Assembly: GCF_025398335.1 (NCBI RefSeq)
Contig: NZ_JAODOO010000002.1
Span: 305,166-369,165 of the forward strand
From: Clostridium sp. CX1
Lineage (GTDB): Bacteria; Bacillota; Clostridia; Clostridiales; Clostridiaceae
Length of the DNA stretch: 64,000 nt
Direction: 5' to 3'
Positions 2,284 through 59,604 of this stretch are shown here, piece by piece; the stretch's first letter is position 1; every line of letters starts with the position of its first letter. The position numbers and the translations under genes are program-made. The notes under the pieces were generated by a model that saw nothing but the letters and a program-made list of their open reading frames with translations, ran no database searches and was not told where the DNA came from.

Positions 2284-4884
2284 CTATTCAACTATAATTA
2301 CAATATTATCATCCTTACCATCTACAACTATAGTAGAGCCATCGTAAACTTCACCGGCTATTATTTTTCTAGCTATATTAGTTTCCAGAGTGTTTTCAAT
2401 ATATCTTCTTAGTGGTCTAGCTCCATAAACTGGATCATAACCTTCCTCCGCTAAAAGCTCTTTAGCCTCTTCAGTAACCTTCATAGTGATATTTCTGTCC
2501 TTAAGTCTCTTTCTTACATCTTGAAGGAATATATCTATTATTTTCTTAATACCTTCATTGTTTAGTGGTCTAAATAATATAATGTCATCTAATCTATTTA
2601 AAAATTCAGGTTTAAATCTTCCCTTCATTTCCTTCATTACTGCATTCCTAATATTTTCATCAATAGAATTTTCACTTTTATTTTCAAGAAGATAACTGCT
2701 TCCTATATTAGAAGTCATTATTATTATTGTGTTCTTAAAATCAATAGTTTTTCCTTTATTGTCTGTAAGCCTTCCGTCATCTAAAATTTGAAGAAATACA
2801 TTAAAGACATCCTCATGGGCTTTTTCTATTTCATCAAATAAGATTACTGAATAGGGTTTTCTTCTAACAGCTTCTGTTAGCTGTCCTCCTTCTTCATAGC
2901 CTACATATCCTGGAGGTGCTCCTATAAGTCTTGATACTGAATACTTTTCCATATACTCAGACATATCTATTCTAATAATATTTTCCTCACTATCAAAAAG
3001 ATTTCTAGCTAAGGTCTTTGCAAGCTCTGTTTTACCTACTCCTGTTGGTCCCAGGAATATAAAGGAACCTATTGGTCTTCTTTCATCCTTCATACCAGCT
3101 CTCGCTCTTATAACTGCATTAGACACACTTCTTGTTGCCTCTTCTTGACCTATAACCCTCTTTTGTAAATCCTCTTCAAGGTTTAACAGTTTTTCCCGTT
3201 CTCCTTCTACTAATTTAGACATAGGAATTCCAGTCCATTTAGCTACTATTTCAGATATCTCATTTTCCGTTACCTCTTCTTTTAGTAGAGCACCTTCATA
3301 ATTTTCCTTCATTTCCTCTTCTTTTTTCTTTATTTCAGCCTCAAGCTTAGGAATAAGACCATACCTCAATTCTGCTACTTTATTTAAGTCATATTCTCTT
3401 TCGTATTTTTCAATGTTTCCTCTTGCCTCATCTAATTGCGCCTTTAGATTTCTTATTTGGAGTATATGTCCCTTCTCTTTATCATATTTAGCTGTCATTT
3501 CATCATTTTTTTCCTTAAGCTCTGCAAGCTCTTTGTCTAACACTTCTAGCCTTGATTTTGATGCCTCATCATTTTCCTTTGATAAAGCCTCTTTTTCCGT
3601 TTCTAATTGAAAGAGTTTTCTTCTAACCATATCTAATTCTGTTGGAAGAGAATCTATTTCGCTTCTTATCATAGCACCAGCTTCATCAATTAAGTCAATA
3701 GCCTTATCTGGCAGAAATCTTCCTTGAATATATCTATGTGATAGCTTTGAAGCTGCCACAATAGCAGAATCATGAATTCTAATACCATGATGAATTTCAA
3801 ATCTTTCCTTCAACCCTCTAAGTATAGAAATAGTATCTTCCACAGTAGGTTCATCTACAGTTACCTTCTGAAATCTTCTCTCTAAGGCCTTATCCTTTTC
3901 AATATACTGTCTATATTCATCAAAGGTAGTTGCACCTATACAATGAAGTTCTCCTCTGGCAAGTAGTGGCTTAATAAGATTGCCAGCATCCATAGCTCCT
4001 TCTGTTTTACCAGCTCCCACTATGGTGTGAATTTCATCTATAAATAATATTATTCTTCCATTGGAGCCTTGCACTTCCTTAAGTACAGCCTTCAATCTTT
4101 CTTCGAATTCCCCTCTGTATTTAGCTCCAGCAATTAAAGCTCCCATATCTAAGGAGAATATTATCTTATCCTTTAACCCTTCAGGAACATCTCCTCTTAC
4201 AATTCTTTCTGCTAGACCTTCTACTATAGCAGTTTTACCTACACCTGGCTCTCCGATTAATACTGGATTATTTTTAGTTCTTCTCGAAAGAATTCTAACA
4301 GTTCTTCTTATTTCTTCATCCCTTCCTATAACAGGATCTAACTTATGCTTTTTAGCTAATTCTACTAAGTTTGTTCCATACTTAGCTAATGCATCATAGG
4401 TTCCTTCAGGATCTTGAGTATCCACCCTTTGACTACCCCTTACTTGAGATAACACCTTCATAAACTCTGATTTTTTTATATCAAATTTAGCTAATAGGCT
4501 TCCTACCAACCCTTTATCATCTATATCCATAATAGCTAACATAACATGTTCTACACTAATGTAGGAATCCTTAAACTTTTCAGCTATAGAATCTGCCTTA
4601 ACTAAAACCTCTTCTATTCTCCTAGTTGCATAAACCGCTGAGTTTTGAGCTCCTTCTCCTAAAACTTTAGGCATCTTATCTAACTGAAGGTGTATATCTT
4701 CCTTTAAAGCCTTGATATTCACACCTATCTTCTCAAATATGTTAGGTACTAACCCATCTTCTTGGTTTACTAAAGCTGAAAACAGATGAATTACATCTAC
4801 CTGTTGATGGTTATACTTAACCGCTGTTAGTTGGGCATCATTTAAACTTTGTTGTACTCTTATAGTCATTTTTTCTATGTTCAT
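2284..4884 (-). CDS. clpB: ATP-dependent disaggregase ClpB
   Basis: ClpB is a hexameric AAA+ chaperone that works with DnaK to pull polypeptides out of aggregates. The 866 residues match the usual length. Residues 1-150 are the Clp N-domain. NBD1 has Walker A GEPGVGKT (211-218), Walker B ILFIDEIH (about 279-286) and the pore loop KYRG with Tyr256. A charged coiled-coil M domain spans about 400-520. NBD2 has Walker A GPTGVGKTELAKTLA near 608 and pore loop GYVGYEEGG. The start is placed at 4884 (MNIEKMTIRVQQ) because AGAGGAGAAG lies just upstream and because the -35/-10 promoter falls inside the longer reading frame that begins at 4947. There is no ClpP-binding IGF/IGL loop between the two ATPase modules that I can see, consistent with ClpB rather than ClpC. 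Confidence 0.97.
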   Translation of the reverse strand: MNIEKMTIRVQQSLNDAQLTAVKYNHQQVDVIHLFSALVNQEDGLVPNIFEKIGVNIKALKEDIHLQLDKMPKVLGEGAQNSAVYATRRIEEVLVKADSIAEKFKDSYISVEHVMLAIMDIDDKGLVGSLLAKFDIKKSEFMKVLSQVRGSQRVDTQDPEGTYDALAKYGTNLVELAKKHKLDPVIGRDEEIRRTVRILSRRTKNNPVLIGEPGVGKTAIVEGLAERIVRGDVPEGLKDKIIFSLDMGALIAGAKYRGEFEERLKAVLKEVQGSNGRIILFIDEIHTIVGAGKTEGAMDAGNLIKPLLARGELHCIGATTFDEYRQYIEKDKALERRFQKVTVDEPTVEDTISILRGLKERFEIHHGIRIHDSAIVAASKLSHRYIQGRFLPDKAIDLIDEAGAMIRSEIDSLPTELDMVRRKLFQLETEKEALSKENDEASKSRLEVLDKELAELKEKNDEMTAKYDKEKGHILQIRNLKAQLDEARGNIEKYEREYDLNKVAELRYGLIPKLEAEIKKKEEEMKENYEGALLKEEVTENEISEIVAKWTGIPMSKLVEGEREKLLNLEEDLQKRVIGQEEATRSVSNAVIRARAGMKDERRPIGSFIFLGPTGVGKTELAKTLARNLFDSEENIIRIDMSEYMEKYSVSRLIGAPPGYVGYEEGGQLTEAVRRKPYSVILFDEIEKAHEDVFNVFLQILDDGRLTDNKGKTIDFKNTIIIMTSNIGSSYLLENKSENSIDENIRNAVMKEMKGRFKPEFLNRLDDIILFRPLNNEGIKKIIDIFLQDVRKRLKDRNITMKVTEEAKELLAEEGYDPVYGARPLRRYIENTLETNIARKIIAGEVYDGSTIVVDGKDDNIVIIVE

Positions 4885-37594: not shown

Positions 37595-40500
37595 TTAAAC
37601 CCCTTTATTGTCTCCTTCTGTAAGCTGATTAACTATTCTATCAACTTCCTTATTAGGATTTCTCCACCAGTCCTTGCTCCATATTCTTATGATTCTCCAC
37701 CCTCTAGATTCTAAATATCTCTGTCTATGAATATCTCTTTCCCTAGCTGACTTTGAACTATGATAGGTTGCTCCGTCACACTCTATGCCTAAGATATAGC
37801 TTGAAGTCCTTGTATCATATATTGCTAAATCAATTTTATACCCGGATACTCCTACTTGGGTATCAACCTTATATCCTCTTTTAACCAAGGCTTCATATAC
37901 CTCTGCTTCAAAATCGCTGTCATGTCTTCTTTCTCTATTCCTATTAACATCGCTGTCTAGAAGACTATTTAGGATTAATTGTGCTCCTTCTTTATTTCCC
38001 TTTGATACTTCTCTAACGTACTGGAGATACCTTTTAAAGAGCCTAGGACCATTATTTTTTGAAGAATCAACACTTAATTCCTCTGGCTCTATTGAGGTTA
38101 GAACATATATCTTCTTTTTAGCTCTGCTTATTGCAACATTTAACCTGTTTTCTCCACCATCCTGTGAAAGAGAACCAAAGTTCACAGATACTCTTCCATT
38201 TTCATTTTTAGCATAGGCTGTGGAAAATATTATGATATCTCTTTCATCTCCCTGCACATTTTCAATGTTCTTCACAAAAAGACTTAAATCTTCATTATTT
38301 TCTTCCCTCTCTATCTCTTTAACATATGCCTTCTTAAACTCCTCATCTTTCTGACCTCTCTTTTCCAGCATATCTTCAATAAGGGATTTTTGATTTATGT
38401 TAAAGGTTATTATTCCTATGGTTTCTTTATTTTTTCTCTCTTTAAATAGCCTTGCTACAATATTTACTATTTCCTCCGCTTCCCTTTCATTATACCTATC
38501 TATCCATCTGCCTTCCACCATTATTCTTTCTATAGGAGCTCCATATTCACTTTCACTTTTTAAGTTTGGCGATACTTGAAGTCTTCCTCCATAGAAGGCA
38601 TAGTTTGAGAAATTGATTAGTTCATCATACTCTGAACGATAATGATAGCTTAGGTGAACGCTATTATAATTTACCTTGGCAAGGTCCAGTAAACTTTCCT
38701 CTTCAAGAGCTGCTATGTTATCCATATCCTCTTCTTCATCACAGCCATTAAATCTGGAATTAAAAGTTGAAGATGGTTTAAGCTGCTTATCATCCCCTGC
38801 TACTACAACTTGTTTTCCTCTGAATATAGTTGGAATAGCATTTTCTACAAAGATTTGTGATGCTTCATCAAAAATCACTATATCAAAGATCTTTTCCTTA
38901 AGAGGAAAAACCTCTGACACAGTTTCAGGGCTTAAAAGGAAACAAGGAAATATCTTTAATATCAAGTCACTGTATTCTTCAAAGTATTTTCTTATAGGCA
39001 AAAGAGATCTTTTTTTATTTGCTTGCCTTTTAAACTCTCTAAAGTTACTCTCCTCTGCTAACTTCGGTATTTTTTCTGCCCATTTATCTAAAATATATTG
39101 TCGACTTAATTTTTGCTTTATAGCCATACTATTTTCTACGTCTTCAACTATACTGTTAAAAGAATTTATTTGTTCAAGAACCTTTTGAACCTTTTCTTCC
39201 TTTTCTATTTCTAAAATATTATAGAGTATAGTAAATTCCAAAAGAGAATTTATTCTTTTCCTCATCACCGTTATATTGCTATTATAAGCATAATTTAATA
39301 TCTTACGTTCTAACTTCTCAAGATTTTTCACAGTTATTAGATCATCTCTGTACTTCTCTATTGTATTTAGTGCATCTATAATATCTAGAAAGTATTCAGT
39401 TAAATCCTCACCCTTTAAGAATTTTTCAATAATCATATTATAAGCTTTATCATTGAGAGCTTTTTTTACAACTAATATGTCCTGAAAAGCTTTCTGTATT
39501 GGTAGATATATTTTTACTACCTTATCTATAAATTCCCTCTCTTTTACGTAAAATTGTTTTCTATTTTCTTCTTCCAATCTTTTATTTTCAGAATAGCTTA
39601 ACCAGTAGCCAATGCTCCACCATCTTCCATCATTTATCTTATTAAGAAGAGAATTATTATATTTTTCATTAAGTACTACTGCTAACTTTTCTGCTTCTTC
39701 CTTATCTAGTTCATAGGAATGCTTCTTAAATAAACTCATTAATCCTTCATAGATTTTATCTTCCTCTAAGCTAATCTTTATAATGTTTTTTATAGGTAGT
39801 ACCATAGCTTCTATCTTTTCAGATAACTCATCTATGTCCATAAAGTTCATTGTAGGATTAACATCTTCTATAAAAGGATTTTTACTGAGAAGTTCACTAT
39901 ACTTCTGAAAGGCTTCCACCTCTTTATCTTTAATTCTTTCTATAGCGTTTCTTAATTCGTAATATTTTCCTTCCTTAAAATCATTATTTTTTTTGAATCT
40001 ATTAAAGTCTTCATATCTTTCATCTTCTTTTCCTATTATCCCTTTTGTTTTGGAATACATTTCCTGCAGTGAAATGCCATAACTCCTTTCCTTATGAAGC
40101 ACTTCACCTACAAGTTCTAGAAGCTGAATTCTGTCATCTATAGACTTAGCTAACCTTGCTATTTCCTCTTTGCCTTTATTTGTGGCAGCTTCACTTTCCT
40201 CTAATGCTTCTGCAATAAAAGAATAGAATCTTTTTTTATCTCCATTTATATCATGGATAAGCACAGACTTCTTATTTAGTTCTTCCAATCTGTTATATAT
40301 TACATCAAGTGCTGCTCTTTTTTCAGATACCATTAGCACAGTTTTATCCTTTGCCAGAGCATCTCCTATAATATTGACAATAGTTTGTGATTTGCCTGTA
40401 CCTGGTGGTCCGTATATGACCAGCTGTTTTGAGTCGTTAACCTTCTTAACTGCTTTTTCCTGACTATAATCTAAAGGAGATATTAAATATAGGTCCTTTT

Positions 40501-41509
40501 CACTAAAGGAAAGTTTACCATGTTCTTCTTTTTCCTCTTCAACAACTGTGCCTACAGAATTACTTTTAAGAAGCTGACTTAAAAGTTCATTGTCAGTTTC
40601 CATAGTTTCCAATTCCATATAATCCTTATATATAGAGTTTGCCATTGGAAATTGTCCCACTACTATATAATTTTTAACCTTAATCTCACCTAAACTGTAT
40701 TTTGGAATAGTATTCTTTTTATAATCATTAAACTTCAAAGGCTCAGTTTCTTCATAGTTTACTATAATACTGTTGTCTTTTAAGTCCTCTATAATCTTTA
40801 GTATAAAATCCTCTTCTATATCCTCAAACTCTGTTTCTATAGCTGGTAACTTAATTTCATTATGTTTGGAACAGGCCATTAAAAAAACTTTATTAATGAG
40901 AACAGGCCTATCTACTATATTGTTGCAATACCACTGATCTCCATTTCTTGAAAAGGTAACAGGAAATAGTACTAAAGGTGCTCTTACAAAAGTTTCATCT
41001 TTAAGATTCCCCTCAACAAAGGGATAGCCAATATACAGCTCATATCTGCCTGTTTCCTTATGTATATCACCTATTTCCTTATGTAGTGCTTTTAAACTGG
41101 CAGAAAAATCAATTATCCTTTCCCCATTTTCATTTATCTTTGCCAGTTCCCAGTCTAACTTTTCATTAAAGGTTTCTTCAATTACTAAAAGTTTATCTTC
41201 TAGTACTTTCATATCTAGCTTTTCTTCTTTAAGTTTTTCTATTTCCAGTTTTTTATCTTTAGGAAGTTCTTTTCTTAAAATTTCTTTTTTGTCATTTACA
41301 TAGGCATAGGAGTCCTCTAGTAATAGAAAGCTTTTACTTTCTCTGTTTAACATCCACTGAATAAGTTCCTCAGCTATTCCTTTTCTTATATCTTCAAGCT
41401 TAACTATATCAAAGGCTCTCTTTTTAGGAAGTGTCATGCTTACTAGACTTCTGTTTCTTCCGCTTAAATTAATAAGTCTCTCCTTATATTTCTGGAGAAT
41501 TTCCTTCAT
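37595..41509 (-). CDS. DUF4011 / SF1 helicase / Vsr-like nuclease protein (Hhe-like defence candidate)
   Basis: This is a 1304-residue single-gene unit. The N-terminus is DUF4011-like ([23 protein letters not shown]..., to about 330). An Upf1/Dna2-type SF1 helicase follows, with Walker [11 protein letters not shown] (367-376), [11 protein letters not shown], a long coiled-coil insertion (about 420-840), motif [14 protein letters not shown] near 880, [10 protein letters not shown], and the last motifs [16 protein letters not shown] and [16 protein letters not shown]. The C-terminal ~110 residues are a PD-(D/E)xK nuclease of the MTES_1575/Vsr type: [20 protein letters not shown] (near 1241), [13 protein letters not shown]. 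This order matches the helicase-Vsr protein reported as an anti-phage system (hhe), as I recall it. No other known defence gene adjoins it. Confidence 0.85.
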
Positions 41510-43185: not shown

Positions 43186-44196
43186 TTATTTAAAGTTACT
43201 CTTTCTTTTATCTCTAGCAGAAAGAATATTCTCAGCCATCTTGTAAAAATCTATATGATTGGTCTTTTCTACATGTGATTTCCACTGATCTCTAATACTT
43301 GATGCACCGCCGAAAGCACCACAGAGGGCACCAACAATAGCACCATTAGTATCAGCATCATCGCCGATATTAATTACTGCAGGTAAACATTCCTCATAAA
43401 TTCCACCGCCAGCATAAAAAACACCTAAACTTAAAGGAATAGACTCATAGCTCTTCATACCTGCTCCAATTAATCGGTACAGCATTTTACAGACTTCATC
43501 TAAGCTTTTATCCTTATTGCTGTCTACAACCTTTATAGCCAGTTTTATTCTTTCTTCAACGGAAGGCGACGGTATATCATACCCCTTTTCTTCTCCATAA
43601 TGTGCTCCATAAATTGCTGCTTTCATCACCTCAGAAATTGGCTCCTTCCCTTCTACTGCACAGGCTACAGCAGCTGCTACAGCACAGGTGGAAGCTGCTC
43701 CTGGCTTGCTGCCGTGAGATACAATGGCTGATTGAAAGGCATCCTCTACAGCATTTTTTACATCTCCATGATGGAAGATTCCTATTGGTGCTACTCTCAT
43801 AGCACCACCGTTGGTATCTCCCAATCTCGCTGCCTTAATATAATCTTCTCCGCTTATAATAGAAGTTAGAAATCTTCTTGTGCTTGGCCCAATAACCGTT
43901 GTTTCCAACATCTTATTTTTAATTGCCCATTGTCTCATTTTATCTACAAAAAGCTCTACATGAAAGCCAGCTTTCTCTATTAAAACTGACGCAATAATAA
44001 TACTTTCTTCAGTATCATCGGTTATTTCTCCTTTCTCTAAGGAACCATGAGCCCTCTGCTCTGATGATGGTTTGTTAAAGCCTAAAATCCTTCCATAGGA
44101 TTTTTCTATTTGATTCGGTGTCATAAATGATGCAGGCATTCCCATAGCATCACCTATAGCTGAACCTATTAAAGCTCCATAAGCCCTATTAAGCAT
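43186..44196 (-). CDS. ADP-ribosylglycohydrolase family protein (DraG-like), operon copy
   Basis: The 336-residue protein has the dinuclear metal site of the DraG/ARH family. The N-terminal motif is GALIGSAIGDAMGMP. TDDTEESIIIASVLIE supplies the first aspartates (near residue 58), and the C-terminal IGDDADTNGAIVGALCGAFGG the second pair. Such enzymes cleave the N-glycosidic bond of ADP-ribosyl or related ribosyl groups. The start at 44196 overlaps the end of the PfkB gene by 8 bases, with the ribosome site AAGGAGAGA inside that gene, so the two are translationally coupled. Between a ribokinase-like enzyme and a nicotinamidase-like one, a small-molecule ribosyl substrate is more likely than a protein. 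Confidence 0.88.
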   Translation of the reverse strand: MLNRAYGALIGSAIGDAMGMPASFMTPNQIEKSYGRILGFNKPSSEQRAHGSLEKGEITDDTEESIIIASVLIEKAGFHVELFVDKMRQWAIKNKMLETTVIGPSTRRFLTSIISGEDYIKAARLGDTNGGAMRVAPIGIFHHGDVKNAVEDAFQSAIVSHGSKPGAASTCAVAAAVACAVEGKEPISEVMKAAIYGAHYGEEKGYDIPSPSVEERIKLAIKVVDSNKDKSLDEVCKMLYRLIGAGMKSYESIPLSLGVFYAGGGIYEECLPAVINIGDDADTNGAIVGALCGAFGGASSIRDQWKSHVEKTNHIDFYKMAENILSARDKRKSNFK

Positions 44197-49111: not shown

Positions 49112-49165
49112 TTTTATTCCTCCTATAAATAATTAAATTAAGATATTTTTATTATTGTTATTTCT

Positions 49166-49275: not shown

Positions 49276-49293
49276 AGGAATGCATGCATTCCT
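49276..49293. repeat. perfect 18-base palindrome
   Basis: AGGAATGCATGCATTCCT is fully self-complementary. It has no T run and no loop, so it looks like a protein-binding site, not a terminator. It lies about 165 bases upstream of the potD-like start. Confidence 0.6.
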
Positions 49294-49314: not shown

Positions 49315-49353
49315 AAAAAAATCACATGAGGTTTAATCCTCATGTGATTTTTT
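49315..49353. terminator. terminator of the tubZ-like gene
   Basis: AAAAATCACATGAGG, loop tttaat, CCTCATGTGATTTTT form a perfect stem with A and T runs on the two sides, about 100 bases after the tubZ-like stop. Confidence 0.9.
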
Positions 49354-49448: not shown

Positions 49449-50504
49449 CTAGAAAGTATAATTGTCTTCAAGTAAATTATTAAGTTCACTATTATTAAGT
49501 ACGTCTATTTCTTCTTTTTCTTCTTTATTATTCATATTTAAATCAATCATAACACTTCTTTTTTTACTTCTTGATAATTTTCTTTTATTTTTCTCTTCTA
49601 AAGCCATCTTTATTAAATTTATTGATTCTGTAGGAGTTTCACATCCTCCAAGAACTACTATGTTATTCTTATTATTATATGTTATATATGTACTTTTATA
49701 AACTTCGAATAATTTAGTCACTTCATATGGATCATATCCATCAATTTTTAAATTAATACCTAAATAATCACAATCATATAGATCTGGCTGAACAAATACA
49801 CTGTTTTTTATGGCTAAATCAACAGCAGTCTTAGCATCTTTTAGGCCATCATATAACTTTAAAACAAGACCTGATCCTTCTGCTGTATTTATTCTAAATG
49901 AATCTTTATTATCAATACTACCATCAGCATGAATACCTATTATGTTATATGCCAAATCTAAACTTTCAATTACTTCATTATTAATTTCTTTGTAGGTATT
50001 TCTCTTATTATTATCTACAAACTTAACATCGCTTATTAAGTCCATTATACTATTTATATCATTCCAACACTCAATAGTATTTTTAAATGCCAATTCATCT
50101 TCCTTTAAACTAGGTAAAACAGCTACTACATTTACTTTGGCATTTGGTAATACTTTTTTTACTATTTGTATAAAGGTTTTTATTGCGCCGGAACCTGTTC
50201 CCCCAGCCATAGTTGTAAATACTACAACTACTTCTGTTAAAGGATATTTGCTTAGCAATGTTCCTATGGCATTAATATTATCTTTTAGCATTTCTTTAGA
50301 TTTATTTCTATCTCTTCCTGAACCATCTGTTCCTGGATATACATATACATTTTTTATCATATCGGCATTTTTTAGTGGTTTTATATCAAATAAACTGCTA
50401 TTTAAGAATAACCCATTATATCTTTGATTTTTACTTAATAATCCATCTACTATATTTCCAGCACCTTGTCCTAGTGCAACTAATAACATTTTACCTTTTT
50501 CCAT
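49449..50504 (-). CDS. TubZ-like tubulin/FtsZ-superfamily GTPase
   Basis: The 351-residue protein has the tubulin-superfamily GTP site: T1 loop LGQGAGNIVDGLL (Gly12-Asn16), LFLNSSLFDI (T2-T3 region), the diagnostic T4 GGTGSGA (101-107) and VVAVLPSLKEDE (T5). T6 candidates are Asn142, Asn148 and Asn165, and Asp197-Asp201 lie where the T7 catalytic acid should fall. It is not the division FtsZ: GGGGTGTG is replaced by AGGTGSGA, and the FtsZ C-terminal peptide is absent. The tail has a basic stretch KRKLSRSKKRS and then an acidic end EEKEEID...LLEDNYTF. It most resembles TubZ, the plasmid/phage partition tubulin of Bacillus and Clostridium. It is divergent from a MerR/coiled-coil gene. No TubR-sized gene is near. 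Confidence 0.85.
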   Translation of the reverse strand: MEKGKMLLVALGQGAGNIVDGLLSKNQRYNGLFLNSSLFDIKPLKNADMIKNVYVYPGTDGSGRDRNKSKEMLKDNINAIGTLLSKYPLTEVVVVFTTMAGGTGSGAIKTFIQIVKKVLPNAKVNVVAVLPSLKEDELAFKNTIECWNDINSIMDLISDVKFVDNNKRNTYKEINNEVIESLDLAYNIIGIHADGSIDNKDSFRINTAEGSGLVLKLYDGLKDAKTAVDLAIKNSVFVQPDLYDCDYLGINLKIDGYDPYEVTKLFEVYKSTYITYNNKNNIVVLGGCETPTESINLIKMALEEKNKRKLSRSKKRSVMIDLNMNNKEEKEEIDVLNNSELNNLLEDNYTF

Positions 50505-50537
50505 AATTACTCTCCTTATTACATTATTATATACCTA

Positions 50538-50559
50538 TTATCGAAGAAAATTTTGATAA
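50538..50559. promoter_or_regulatory. dyad in the tubZ/tubY-like divergent promoter
   Basis: TTATCgAAg and TTttGATAA flank an AAAAT centre to give an imperfect 22-base palindrome. A TATAAT for the tubZ-like gene lies a few bases to the left (minus strand). The same dyad, read in the other direction, recurs before the acetate transporter gene at 59109-59128. Confidence 0.45.
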
Positions 50560-50653
50560 CCTTATATTTTAAATCCTTTTTTTAAAAAAATTATAATAAT
50601 TACTTAAGTTTACCTCTTATCCATTCGAAAAGAGAAGGGGAGGATTAATTATT

Positions 50654-51484
50654 ATGGATAATAAAGATAAATACATAGATACACAAAAAGTTAGTGCTAA
50701 AATTGAAAATAAAAAAAGAGGCGAAATATTGTACTATTCTATTGAACAGGTTGCTAATTTATTAAACGAAAATACTAGTAACATAAAATACTACACAAGT
50801 ATATTTGACGATCTGTTAAAAATTGCAATAGTAGATAAAGAGTTACGTTATACTAGTAATGATGTTGATAAATTAGAATTCTTAATAAAATTAAAAAATA
50901 AAGGTATGTCTCTTAAAGAGATTCAGAGCTATTGTAATAAGCTGCCTTTAAATGGTACTGAAGTCCAGGAAAGCAATTTATTATCTGTTGAAGAACTTAT
51001 TGATTTAATTAAAGAAGAACAACAAATTCAACTTAATAATTTTAAAGTTCAATTAATGAATGATATGCAAAACTCCAATTCATTATATCTTCAAAATATT
51101 ACTACTGCAATCATTGAAGTTCAAAATAAGACTCTTGATGAATTTAAACAAAATTTATCTATGGAAATTAAAGAATATATAGATTCAAAATTTGATGATT
51201 TTAATGAAATTAACATAAATTCACATGACAAACTTCTTGCTAAAATTACAGGATTTATGTCAGAAAAAATTGACAGCAAAAATGATGAATTAAAACTTAA
51301 TTTACAAAATGATTTCAACACATTTGTTCAATCATCTTTAACTAATAGTGAGCGTTTAATAAAAGAAGTTAAAGATTTTAAAAGAGTTATACAGGATGCT
51401 TATTTTACTCAATATCAAGTAGAAATTGATAATGCTAATACAGGCTTTTTAGGTAAATTACTTCAAATGATTAAGGCTAAATAA
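50654..51484 (+). CDS. MerR-type HTH / coiled-coil protein, TubY-like
   Basis: The 276-residue protein has an N-terminal MerR-like winged helix (27-95): YYSIEQVANLLNENTSNIKY, RYTSNDVDKLEFLIKLKNKG, MSLKEIQSYC. Residues 105-250 are a long amphipathic, mostly helical region with heptad character (EELIDLIKEEQQIQLNNFKV). It ends GFLGKLLQMIKAK, a short cationic amphipathic helix that could touch the membrane. TubY of the Clostridium phage c-st partition locus has a MerR-like HTH and a coiled coil, so this is the natural comparison. Divergent placement from the tubZ-like gene supports it. The MerR ligand domain is absent. The start follows GGGGAGG. Confidence 0.78.
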   Translation: MDNKDKYIDTQKVSAKIENKKRGEILYYSIEQVANLLNENTSNIKYYTSIFDDLLKIAIVDKELRYTSNDVDKLEFLIKLKNKGMSLKEIQSYCNKLPLNGTEVQESNLLSVEELIDLIKEEQQIQLNNFKVQLMNDMQNSNSLYLQNITTAIIEVQNKTLDEFKQNLSMEIKEYIDSKFDDFNEININSHDKLLAKITGFMSEKIDSKNDELKLNLQNDFNTFVQSSLTNSERLIKEVKDFKRVIQDAYFTQYQVEIDNANTGFLGKLLQMIKAK

Positions 51485-52801: not shown

Positions 52802-53575
52802 TCAATTATTGTCTAGCTGCTGATAAAATGCTTTCAAAACTTCTTTCATTTCCTCAGGCAGCAGTTCCTTAGCTCCTTTAAGTATATAATCTGGAATTTC
52901 CTTATAATAGGCTTCTGCAATGCCTCCAGTTATGCAGGCAATGGTATCACTGTCACCACCTATGGATATTGCATTTCTTATAGCATCTTCATAATCAGTG
53001 GATTCCAAAAAGCTTCTTATAGCCTGTGGAACACTTCCCTGACATGAAACATCAAAGCTATACCAGCTTCTGATACTTTCTAGGCTTTCCTCTAAATTAT
53101 ATCCAAAATTCTTTTCAACATAATCCTTTATTTCATCTTTTTTTCTACCCTTCCTTGCAAGGAATATTGAAGCAGCTGTTGCCTTTGCCCCCTTTATTCC
53201 TTCTAGGTGATTATGTGTTACAGCAGCACTTTCCTCTGCTTTAGCAAGAACTTCTTCAATAGAATTATAGTAAAAGCCAACAGGACTAACTCTCATAGCA
53301 GAGCCATTACCATAGCTGCCATAGGGTTCTCTTTCGTCAAGCATCGCCCATCTCATGAAGCTGCCTCCAAAACCTGCATTAGAATATTTCCTAAACCAGT
53401 ATTTGTAACTTTCAGAGAAAGACTTGTCCTTAATAATAGCCTCCATTGTTGCAACTGTAAGTACTGAATCATCAGTAAACCTTGATTTTGGAGAGAACAA
53501 CTCAAAACTTTTAGTTTTTATATTGTTCCACTCATACACAGATCCTATTATATCTCCAGTTATTGCTCCAAGCAT
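52802..53575 (-). CDS. ADP-ribosylglycohydrolase family protein (DraG-like), second copy
   Basis: The 257-residue protein is a second DraG-fold hydrolase, only distantly like the one at 43186. It has GAITGDIIGSVYEWNN, the metal motif RFTDDSVLTVATM, and the C-terminal GGDSDTIACITGGIAEAYY. In the middle it has YGNGSAMRVSPVGFYY, typical of the short bacterial subfamily. The start at 53575 (MLGAITGD) is preferred: the frame's upstream GTG at 53584 touches the AAGGAGG ribosome site. It is transcribed just before corA. The substrate could be ADP-ribosyl-arginine, O-acetyl-ADP-ribose or another ribosyl compound. Confidence 0.9.
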   Translation of the reverse strand: MLGAITGDIIGSVYEWNNIKTKSFELFSPKSRFTDDSVLTVATMEAIIKDKSFSESYKYWFRKYSNAGFGGSFMRWAMLDEREPYGSYGNGSAMRVSPVGFYYNSIEEVLAKAEESAAVTHNHLEGIKGAKATAASIFLARKGRKKDEIKDYVEKNFGYNLEESLESIRSWYSFDVSCQGSVPQAIRSFLESTDYEDAIRNAISIGGDSDTIACITGGIAEAYYKEIPDYILKGAKELLPEEMKEVLKAFYQQLDNN

Positions 53576-53682
53576 ATTCTTCACCCTCCTTATGCTTTAA
53601 ATTATTCCTCTACTGGTTATATGAGTATTTTACTCCAATTATATCAAAAATATTTCAAAAAACTCTAATAATATGATAATAT

Positions 53683-59336: not shown

Positions 59337-59604
59337 TTCGTGCTAGATGGGGAGCCAGCGGTGCCCTGTAACCTGCAATCCGCTACAGCAGGATTGAATT
59401 CCCACTATAGGCTTTACTTTGCTCAGTCTGCCTAATCAAAGTGGTATTGAGAATTGGGTCCCATGCAGCAGAAGCTCATGAAATCCGTCAGATCCGGAAG
59501 GAAGCAGCGGTAAGTGATCACTTCTGAGTGCCGTGGATAAACCTGGTTTGAGCTAACTAGATTAGTAACGTGGGTAGGGTAATTGTCGATAGTGGGTGCA
59601 CGAA
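59337..59604 (+). ncRNA. ffs: signal recognition particle RNA, long Gram-positive type
   Basis: The segment has the universally conserved SRP RNA core: GTCAGATCCGGAAGGAAGCA and then GCGGTAAGTGATC, with the GGAA tetraloop and asymmetric loop that bind Ffh. The Alu-type 5' domain GGGGAGCCAGCGGTGCCCTGTA is also present, followed by CCTGCAATCCGCTACAGCAGG. The ends TTCGTGC (59337) and GCACGAA (59604) pair, giving about 268 bases, as in B. subtilis scRNA. SRP RNA guides nascent membrane proteins to SecYEG. The plus strand carries no coding frame here. In many Firmicutes it lies beside dnaX; here dnaX is not adjacent. Confidence 0.95.

Follow-up and report, generated by a model that had tools for sequence, protein, structure and literature searches.

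What does a partition motor do in a host that lacks its cargo adaptor? This question is raised by a locus of Clostridium sp. CX1 in which genes for a TubZ-type tubulin and a TubY-like protein stand divergently in the window, by which we mean the whole stretch of 64,000 nucleotides analyzed here. According to a passage of Hayashi 2020 (PMC7762940, citing Oliva 2012), some Clostridia encode chromosomal TubZ and TubY but not TubR, and the TubR-less chromosomal arrangement is therefore not new. The present study adds a split of TubZ loci by TubR, an FtsZ-like conservation of TubZ, a single promoter box and a riboswitch in relatives. In literature searches of titles and the starts of abstracts, no study of a chromosomal TubZ was found among the matches listed, and no experimental work on a chromosomal copy turned up. 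The following features were located in the window.

49449..50504, minus strand: tubZ, 351-aa GTPase of the tubulin superfamily, c-st TubZ type
50654..51484, plus strand: tubY-like gene, 276 aa, with a MerR-type winged helix-turn-helix (HTH), a long predicted coil and a short hydrophobic/basic C-terminal helix
50505..50653, no strand: divergent promoter region of 149 bp, without TubR gene, direct-repeat array or Rfam match
50536..50549, minus strand: conserved box TTTCTTCGATAATA before tubZ, putative TubY site (alignment and degenerate-pattern genome scan)
50603..50608, no strand: CTTAAG, identical in all 12 short intergenic regions aligned
50625..50631, minus strand: second box, TTTTCGA, oriented like the first and just before tubY, with TTCG kept in 12 of 12
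49316..49353, plus strand: terminator-like hairpin of 16 pairs between tubZ and the pot operon (terminator scan)
49276-49293: second terminator-like hairpin in the gap between tubZ and the pot operon (terminator scan)

The earlier note on this DNA had described a tubulin GTPase with T1 and T4 motifs, divergent from a MerR-HTH protein, and both coordinates and motifs were confirmed. T1 (GQGAGN) lies at residues 12-17 and T4 (GGTGSGA) at residues 101-107, and the protein matches Pfam Tubulin at 3.1e-11. It is closest to the TubZ of phage c-st, whose structures 4xcq and 3v3t were matched over nearly the full length at 2.8e-43 and 4.4e-43, respectively, and its fold also matched 4xcq (E value, 9e-29; TM 0.92 by target). 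A placement inside FtsZ proper, which the earlier note had held against its own reading, did not hold: the NCBIfam ftsZ model, with a cut-off of 295.2, gave it 17.5 bits. A separate FtsZ of the genome (185 bits) lies on contig C67, adjoining a gene that resembles FtsA by eye. By sequence and fold, the window protein is a TubZ that lies outside FtsZ. Pfam Tubulin had one further match in this genome, the third, on contig C1, which was set aside as below the cut-off and under an ORF that resembles NADH dehydrogenase by eye.

The GTPase loops of the window TubZ are intact. GGTG (101-104) and the acidic pair D198/D201, which we take to be the counterpart of FtsZ D209/D212 (T7), did not vary in any of the 24 aligned TubZ rows. 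The C-terminal tail was modeled as disordered and then as a short end helix. The tail tip was better kept than the linker in the close branch of eight species (74% vs. 68%), but not across all 12 species (49% vs. 52%). The phage search returned only Bacillus phage G as a TubZ relative (23.5%), the plasmid search returned two Bacillus plasmids (26-31%, partial), and TubY had no match in either; these absences carry limited weight because phage c-st was itself missing from the results, though its TubZ is a 30% relative.

The divergent partner matches Pfam MerR_1 at 2.1e-12. In a monomer model of moderate confidence (pLDDT 69.8; pTM 0.30), it has a winged HTH at residues 28-96, two long helices (112-181 and 189-262) and, at 265-275, a short end helix. 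The protein is thus predicted to be a MerR-type HTH followed by a coiled coil, in agreement with the long coiled coil proposed earlier, and the coil rests on this model. Identity among TubY proteins was highest in the HTH (72%), lower in the coil (42-44%) and lowest in the tail (37%), where F265 and L269 were nevertheless present in 90% or more of the rows. Although hydrophobic and basic, the tail has a hydrophobic moment no higher than that of shuffled sequences (at least 57 of 1000 shuffles were as high, in 29 of 29 sequences). Because of this, and because the tail is the least conserved part, membrane binding by the window TubY rests on homology. Passages of PMC7762940 report that the tail of Bacillus cereus TubY is needed for membrane binding and binds once the coil oligomerizes.

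The two genes are separated by 149 bp, a gap that leaves no room for a TubR gene. A Pfam scan of ten flanking genes showed pot-type transporter genes, CorA, a PfkB kinase, two ADP-ribosylglycohydrolases, a hemerythrin/PAS protein and an MFS transporter, with no phage or replication gene among them, in agreement with the earlier note. A large bacterial SRP RNA gene was found at 59338-59603 (RF01854; 204.7 bits), 8 kb from the pair. This gene, in the same contig, supports a chromosomal location. The locus is chromosomal, and the earlier description of a chromosomal two-gene TubZ/TubY module stands, with relatives on chromosomes. The gap between tubZ and the pot operon gave three terminator-like matches at two places, compared with a shuffle mean of 0.5. 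The two ADP-ribosylglycohydrolase genes (window 43186-44196 and 52802-53584) bracket the pot/tubZY/corA stretch. Elsewhere in the window, 37595-41509 on the minus strand encodes a 1304-aa helicase-nuclease protein with DUF4011, AAA and MTES_1575 domains, which is matched by the PADLOC models PDC-S37 (1.2e-196) and Hhe (1.9e-105).

To place the locus among its relatives, a profile of 13 TubZ rows was run on 206 Clostridiaceae genomes, and the loci found were examined up to 1.5 kb on each side. A TubZ match was present in 30 genomes and missing from 176. Five tubZ genes encode distant proteins (28-32% identity to the window TubZ; loci L060 and L063-L066), and each is immediately preceded by a gene of TubR size. 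This ORF of 91-98 aa stops no more than 5 bp from tubZ or runs 8 bp into it, and four of the loci also show a divergent tubY beyond it. The upstream gene of L060, our reference TubR, matches the solved TubR 6tey at 4.8e-4, and the other four share 34-63% identity with it. The 25 close TubZ proteins, the window included, were 58-100% identical to the window TubZ. No ORF of 91-98 aa stood upstream in the 22 close loci with a placeable tubZ start (one of them, L049, shows only 79 bp upstream), and tblastn with one TubR query found no TubR in the 24 close loci besides the window. TubY adjoins TubZ in 23 of the 25, in L061 as a fragment only; the two loci without it are L049, with its 79 bp, and L023 (C. 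magnum, the same DNA as L015). Just upstream of the TubR-like gene of L065, an RNA match to RAGATH-18 was noted at 1103-1164 (64.9 bits).

This split between distant and close TubZ loci is added by our study. The distant loci and the Bacillus plasmid loci L024 and L025, where a small ORF ends at the tubZ start, belong to the same TubZ family and, unlike the window, carry a small gene just ahead of tubZ. In a tree built without the Bacillus plasmids, the TubR-less TubZ rows fell on one side of a branch with a support of 100/100. Twenty-seven rows were labeled TubR-less, of which the database proteins P0112, P0114, P0117 and P0118 were labeled without their neighborhood; the truncated L061 and L023 were left out of both TubZ trees. 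Rooting on the tree with the Bacillus plasmids was rejected, as their branch is four changes long, the TubR label needs two changes, and a single change was seen in 6% of bootstraps. TubR would have been lost once, together with its centromere, in an ancestor, the direction of this change being inferred. The close relatives are chromosomal as well as TubR-less, which does not fit the outcome named against the module in the earlier note, namely homologs always on plasmids or prophages with tubR beside them: seven lie in genomes of one or two contigs, and the named ones lie on contigs of 2.9-6.6 Mb.

The window pair shares with the phage c-st TubZRC-TubY system a TubZ that is about 30% identical along the chain and of the same fold, and a MerR/coiled-coil TubY nearby. 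The window differs in having no TubR beside tubZ, no tubC-like array and a chromosomal position; none of the type III partition hallmarks, namely TubR next to tubZ, a tubC array and carriage by a plasmid or phage, is found there. As far as the excerpt of PMC7762940 describes them, the chromosomal TubZ-TubY pairs of Clostridia are the same as the window pair, having no TubR and a TubY with a putative amphipathic tail, and no difference in kind is apparent; the riboswitch of the relatives described below is not mentioned in that excerpt.

Conservation of the pair was compared with that of FtsZ in 12 species, with C. magnum (L015) left out of identity averages and distance correlations. The core mean pair identity over 66 pairs was 85.2% for TubZ and 84.5% for FtsZ; for TubY, the mean was 51.9%. 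TubZ and TubY distances correlated closely (r 0.95), and FtsZ distances correlated more weakly with those of TubZ and TubY (r 0.65 and 0.70, respectively); none of the three correlations was reached in 5000 permutations. The dN/dS ratio of TubZ ranged from 0.024 to 0.112 in 12 chosen pairs, and that of TubY from 0.108 to 0.256 in 11 pairs. TubZ is conserved like FtsZ and under strong purifying selection, and is therefore not a decaying relic. By these measures, tubZ and tubY are kept by selection and inherited together.

The pair is nonetheless dispensable, as 176 of the 206 genomes are without a TubZ match and the C. magnum copy (L015/L023) is truncated and alone. That TubZ is N-terminally truncated and preceded by a stop codon, and it has no neighboring TubY, in a genome whose FtsZ core is 99% identical to that of the window genome. 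Within the window's genus, tubZ was found in two of seven genomes, one of them truncated. Genes neighboring tubZY are common to close species only, and in two same-genus genomes, located through PotD, another gene follows the pot operon in its place, with homology stopping at window position 49140 or 49247. An empty-site search through CorA was unusable, the best same-genus match being 54% identical. In L043 and L046, tmRNA genes (157-517 and 3645-4004) lie 10 and 119 bp, respectively, from the end of tubY. Since tmRNA genes are a class of integration site, these may mark a past integration site.

The shared promoter was analyzed in an alignment of the 12 short-intergenic loci. Each gene is preceded by a box that contains TTCG, both boxes pointing the same way, and CTTAAG is invariant. 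In the genome of 4.24 Mb, the tubZ promoter held the single match to a degenerate pattern of the tubZ box, and the reversed pattern had eight matches. We infer that TubY binds the tubZ box, a single site that leaves room for other sites or for non-specific DNA binding. Inspection by eye showed conservation of the TCGA-type boxes and of CTTAAG but of no operator dyad for TubY, and a sigma-70 promoter scan was given no weight (21 sites vs. 23.2 in shuffles). Window positions 50480-50680 contain no direct repeats, and no tubC-like array was found in the short-intergenic loci tested; the TubR-bearing L008 has nine direct-repeat families. The 149-bp intergenic region of the window also gave no riboswitch or other Rfam match.

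In another branch, a c-di-GMP-I riboswitch aptamer (RF01051) lies on the tubY strand of the tubZ-tubY intergenic region in four genomes (L016/L048, L017/L051, L018/L053 and L052; L017 is C. chromiireducens), with scores of 64.9-73.3 bits against a gathering threshold of 35. These matches were the following.

L017 9461-9550, minus strand: c-di-GMP-I riboswitch with terminator hairpin, tubY leader (Rfam match)
L016 9524-9613, minus strand: the same
L018 9620-9709, minus strand: the same
L052 1088-1177, minus strand: the same

In all four, a GGTGACTAT...ATAGTCACC hairpin and then a T-rich stretch lie between the riboswitch and tubY, and the hairpin was terminator-like in the two that were scanned. 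The layout of riboswitch and terminator is that of a predicted switch deciding tubY transcription. It was present in four of the eight assessable loci of its branch and absent there from L055, L057, L058 and L059; a relaxed Rfam search of L055-L059 and L062 returned only two T-boxes and no riboswitch. The short-intergenic loci, the TubR-bearing loci and the window are without it. The riboswitch in the tubY leader of these four relatives ties the TubZ/TubY pair to a lifestyle signal. Because c-di-GMP governs motile versus attached life, the task of the pair is likely to be lifestyle-linked and may, for instance, concern cell shape, the pole or attachment to surfaces. Riboswitches of this kind are common before motility and adherence genes, as stated in a passage of PMC6366702. 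No paper joining "c-di-GMP riboswitch" with "tubulin" was found, and among the best 15 of 539 literature matches the sole paper with c-di-GMP, riboswitch and TubZ concerned C. perfringens, the terms not being linked in its available part.

Several other explanations were weighed. As a DNA adaptor, TubY might connect the chromosome with TubZ filaments or with the cell pole, like RacA, the B. subtilis pole anchor. RacA has a coiled coil and a membrane end; it is not known to have a tubulin partner. The DNA-binding domain of RacA has a fold like that of the modeled TubY HTH, which superposes on 5i44 (chains A and B) with a TM of 0.84-0.85 by target, but other MerR proteins fit the model equally well by E value, and RacA was absent from the sequence matches. 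The HTH is the best-conserved TubY domain and may for that reason have a role on DNA other than at its own promoter, and B. cereus TubY is described in a passage of PMC7762940 as binding DNA non-specifically through its tail. The earlier note had favored such an adaptor for chromosome organization. That idea is not supported, since the putative TubY box has a single genomic occurrence and the genome has ParB-type genes of its own (four ParB_N matches, including an adjacent, strong pair); the locus also has no repeat array. We regard the adaptor as unlikely, though as the strongest of the rivals.

A working partition system in a split layout, with TubR encoded elsewhere, would suit the facts that our TubR searches covered the tubZ loci and that TubR is short and fast-diverging, as the other four show; however, TubR stood beside tubZ in no close locus seen, the short-intergenic loci tested have no array and the genome has its own ParB-type genes. 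This is improbable, and we hold it about as improbable that the pair was left behind by an integrated plasmid or phage, whether retained by chance or still in the service of that element. The patchy distribution, the unconserved position, the tmRNA genes near tubY and the truncated C. magnum copy would all suit a remnant; purifying selection with FtsZ-like conservation, intact GTPase residues, ten scanned flanking genes of which none is of phage or replication type, and the riboswitch control in relatives argue against it, as does a two-pattern scan of IMG/VR, which confirmed no TubZ relative. Patchiness, together with TubR-bearing relatives in the same family, would also be expected if the pair targeted foreign elements, host TubZ/TubY co-polymerizing with or poisoning the partition of incoming TubZ plasmids or phages. 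Its slow, uniform evolution is unlike an arms race, and PADLOC matched neither TubZ nor TubY; this is the least probable of the readings.

The reading that we prefer, and to which we give an even chance, is a chromosomal TubZ-TubY pair of a TubR-less type III branch, in which GTP-driven filaments are tethered to the membrane and regulated by TubY and move no plasmid. The host would have retained the motor after a single ancestral loss of TubR and its centromere. TubZ would polymerize through its intact GTPase site, and its tail would bind TubY, whose coil would oligomerize and whose end helix would touch the membrane; the HTH would act as an autoregulator at the shared promoter, and in one branch the supply of TubY would be set by c-di-GMP. 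Passages of PMC5322520 report that TubY coats TubZ filaments and that the tail tip of c-st TubZ interacts with the TubR-centromere complex and with TubY.

The pair can be tested, as its named carriers include the industrial species C. kluyveri, C. cellulovorans and C. saccharoperbutylacetonicum, and the riboswitch in relatives is a first lead to its trigger. A wider picture, which we offer tentatively and at somewhat less than even chances, is that a partition tubulin was captured once by Clostridium and became a second, host-owned cytoskeleton with FtsZ-like conservation. TubY without TubR would then serve as membrane anchor and regulator, one branch would have come under the c-di-GMP switch from motile to attached life, and the domesticated spindle may reshape the settling cell.
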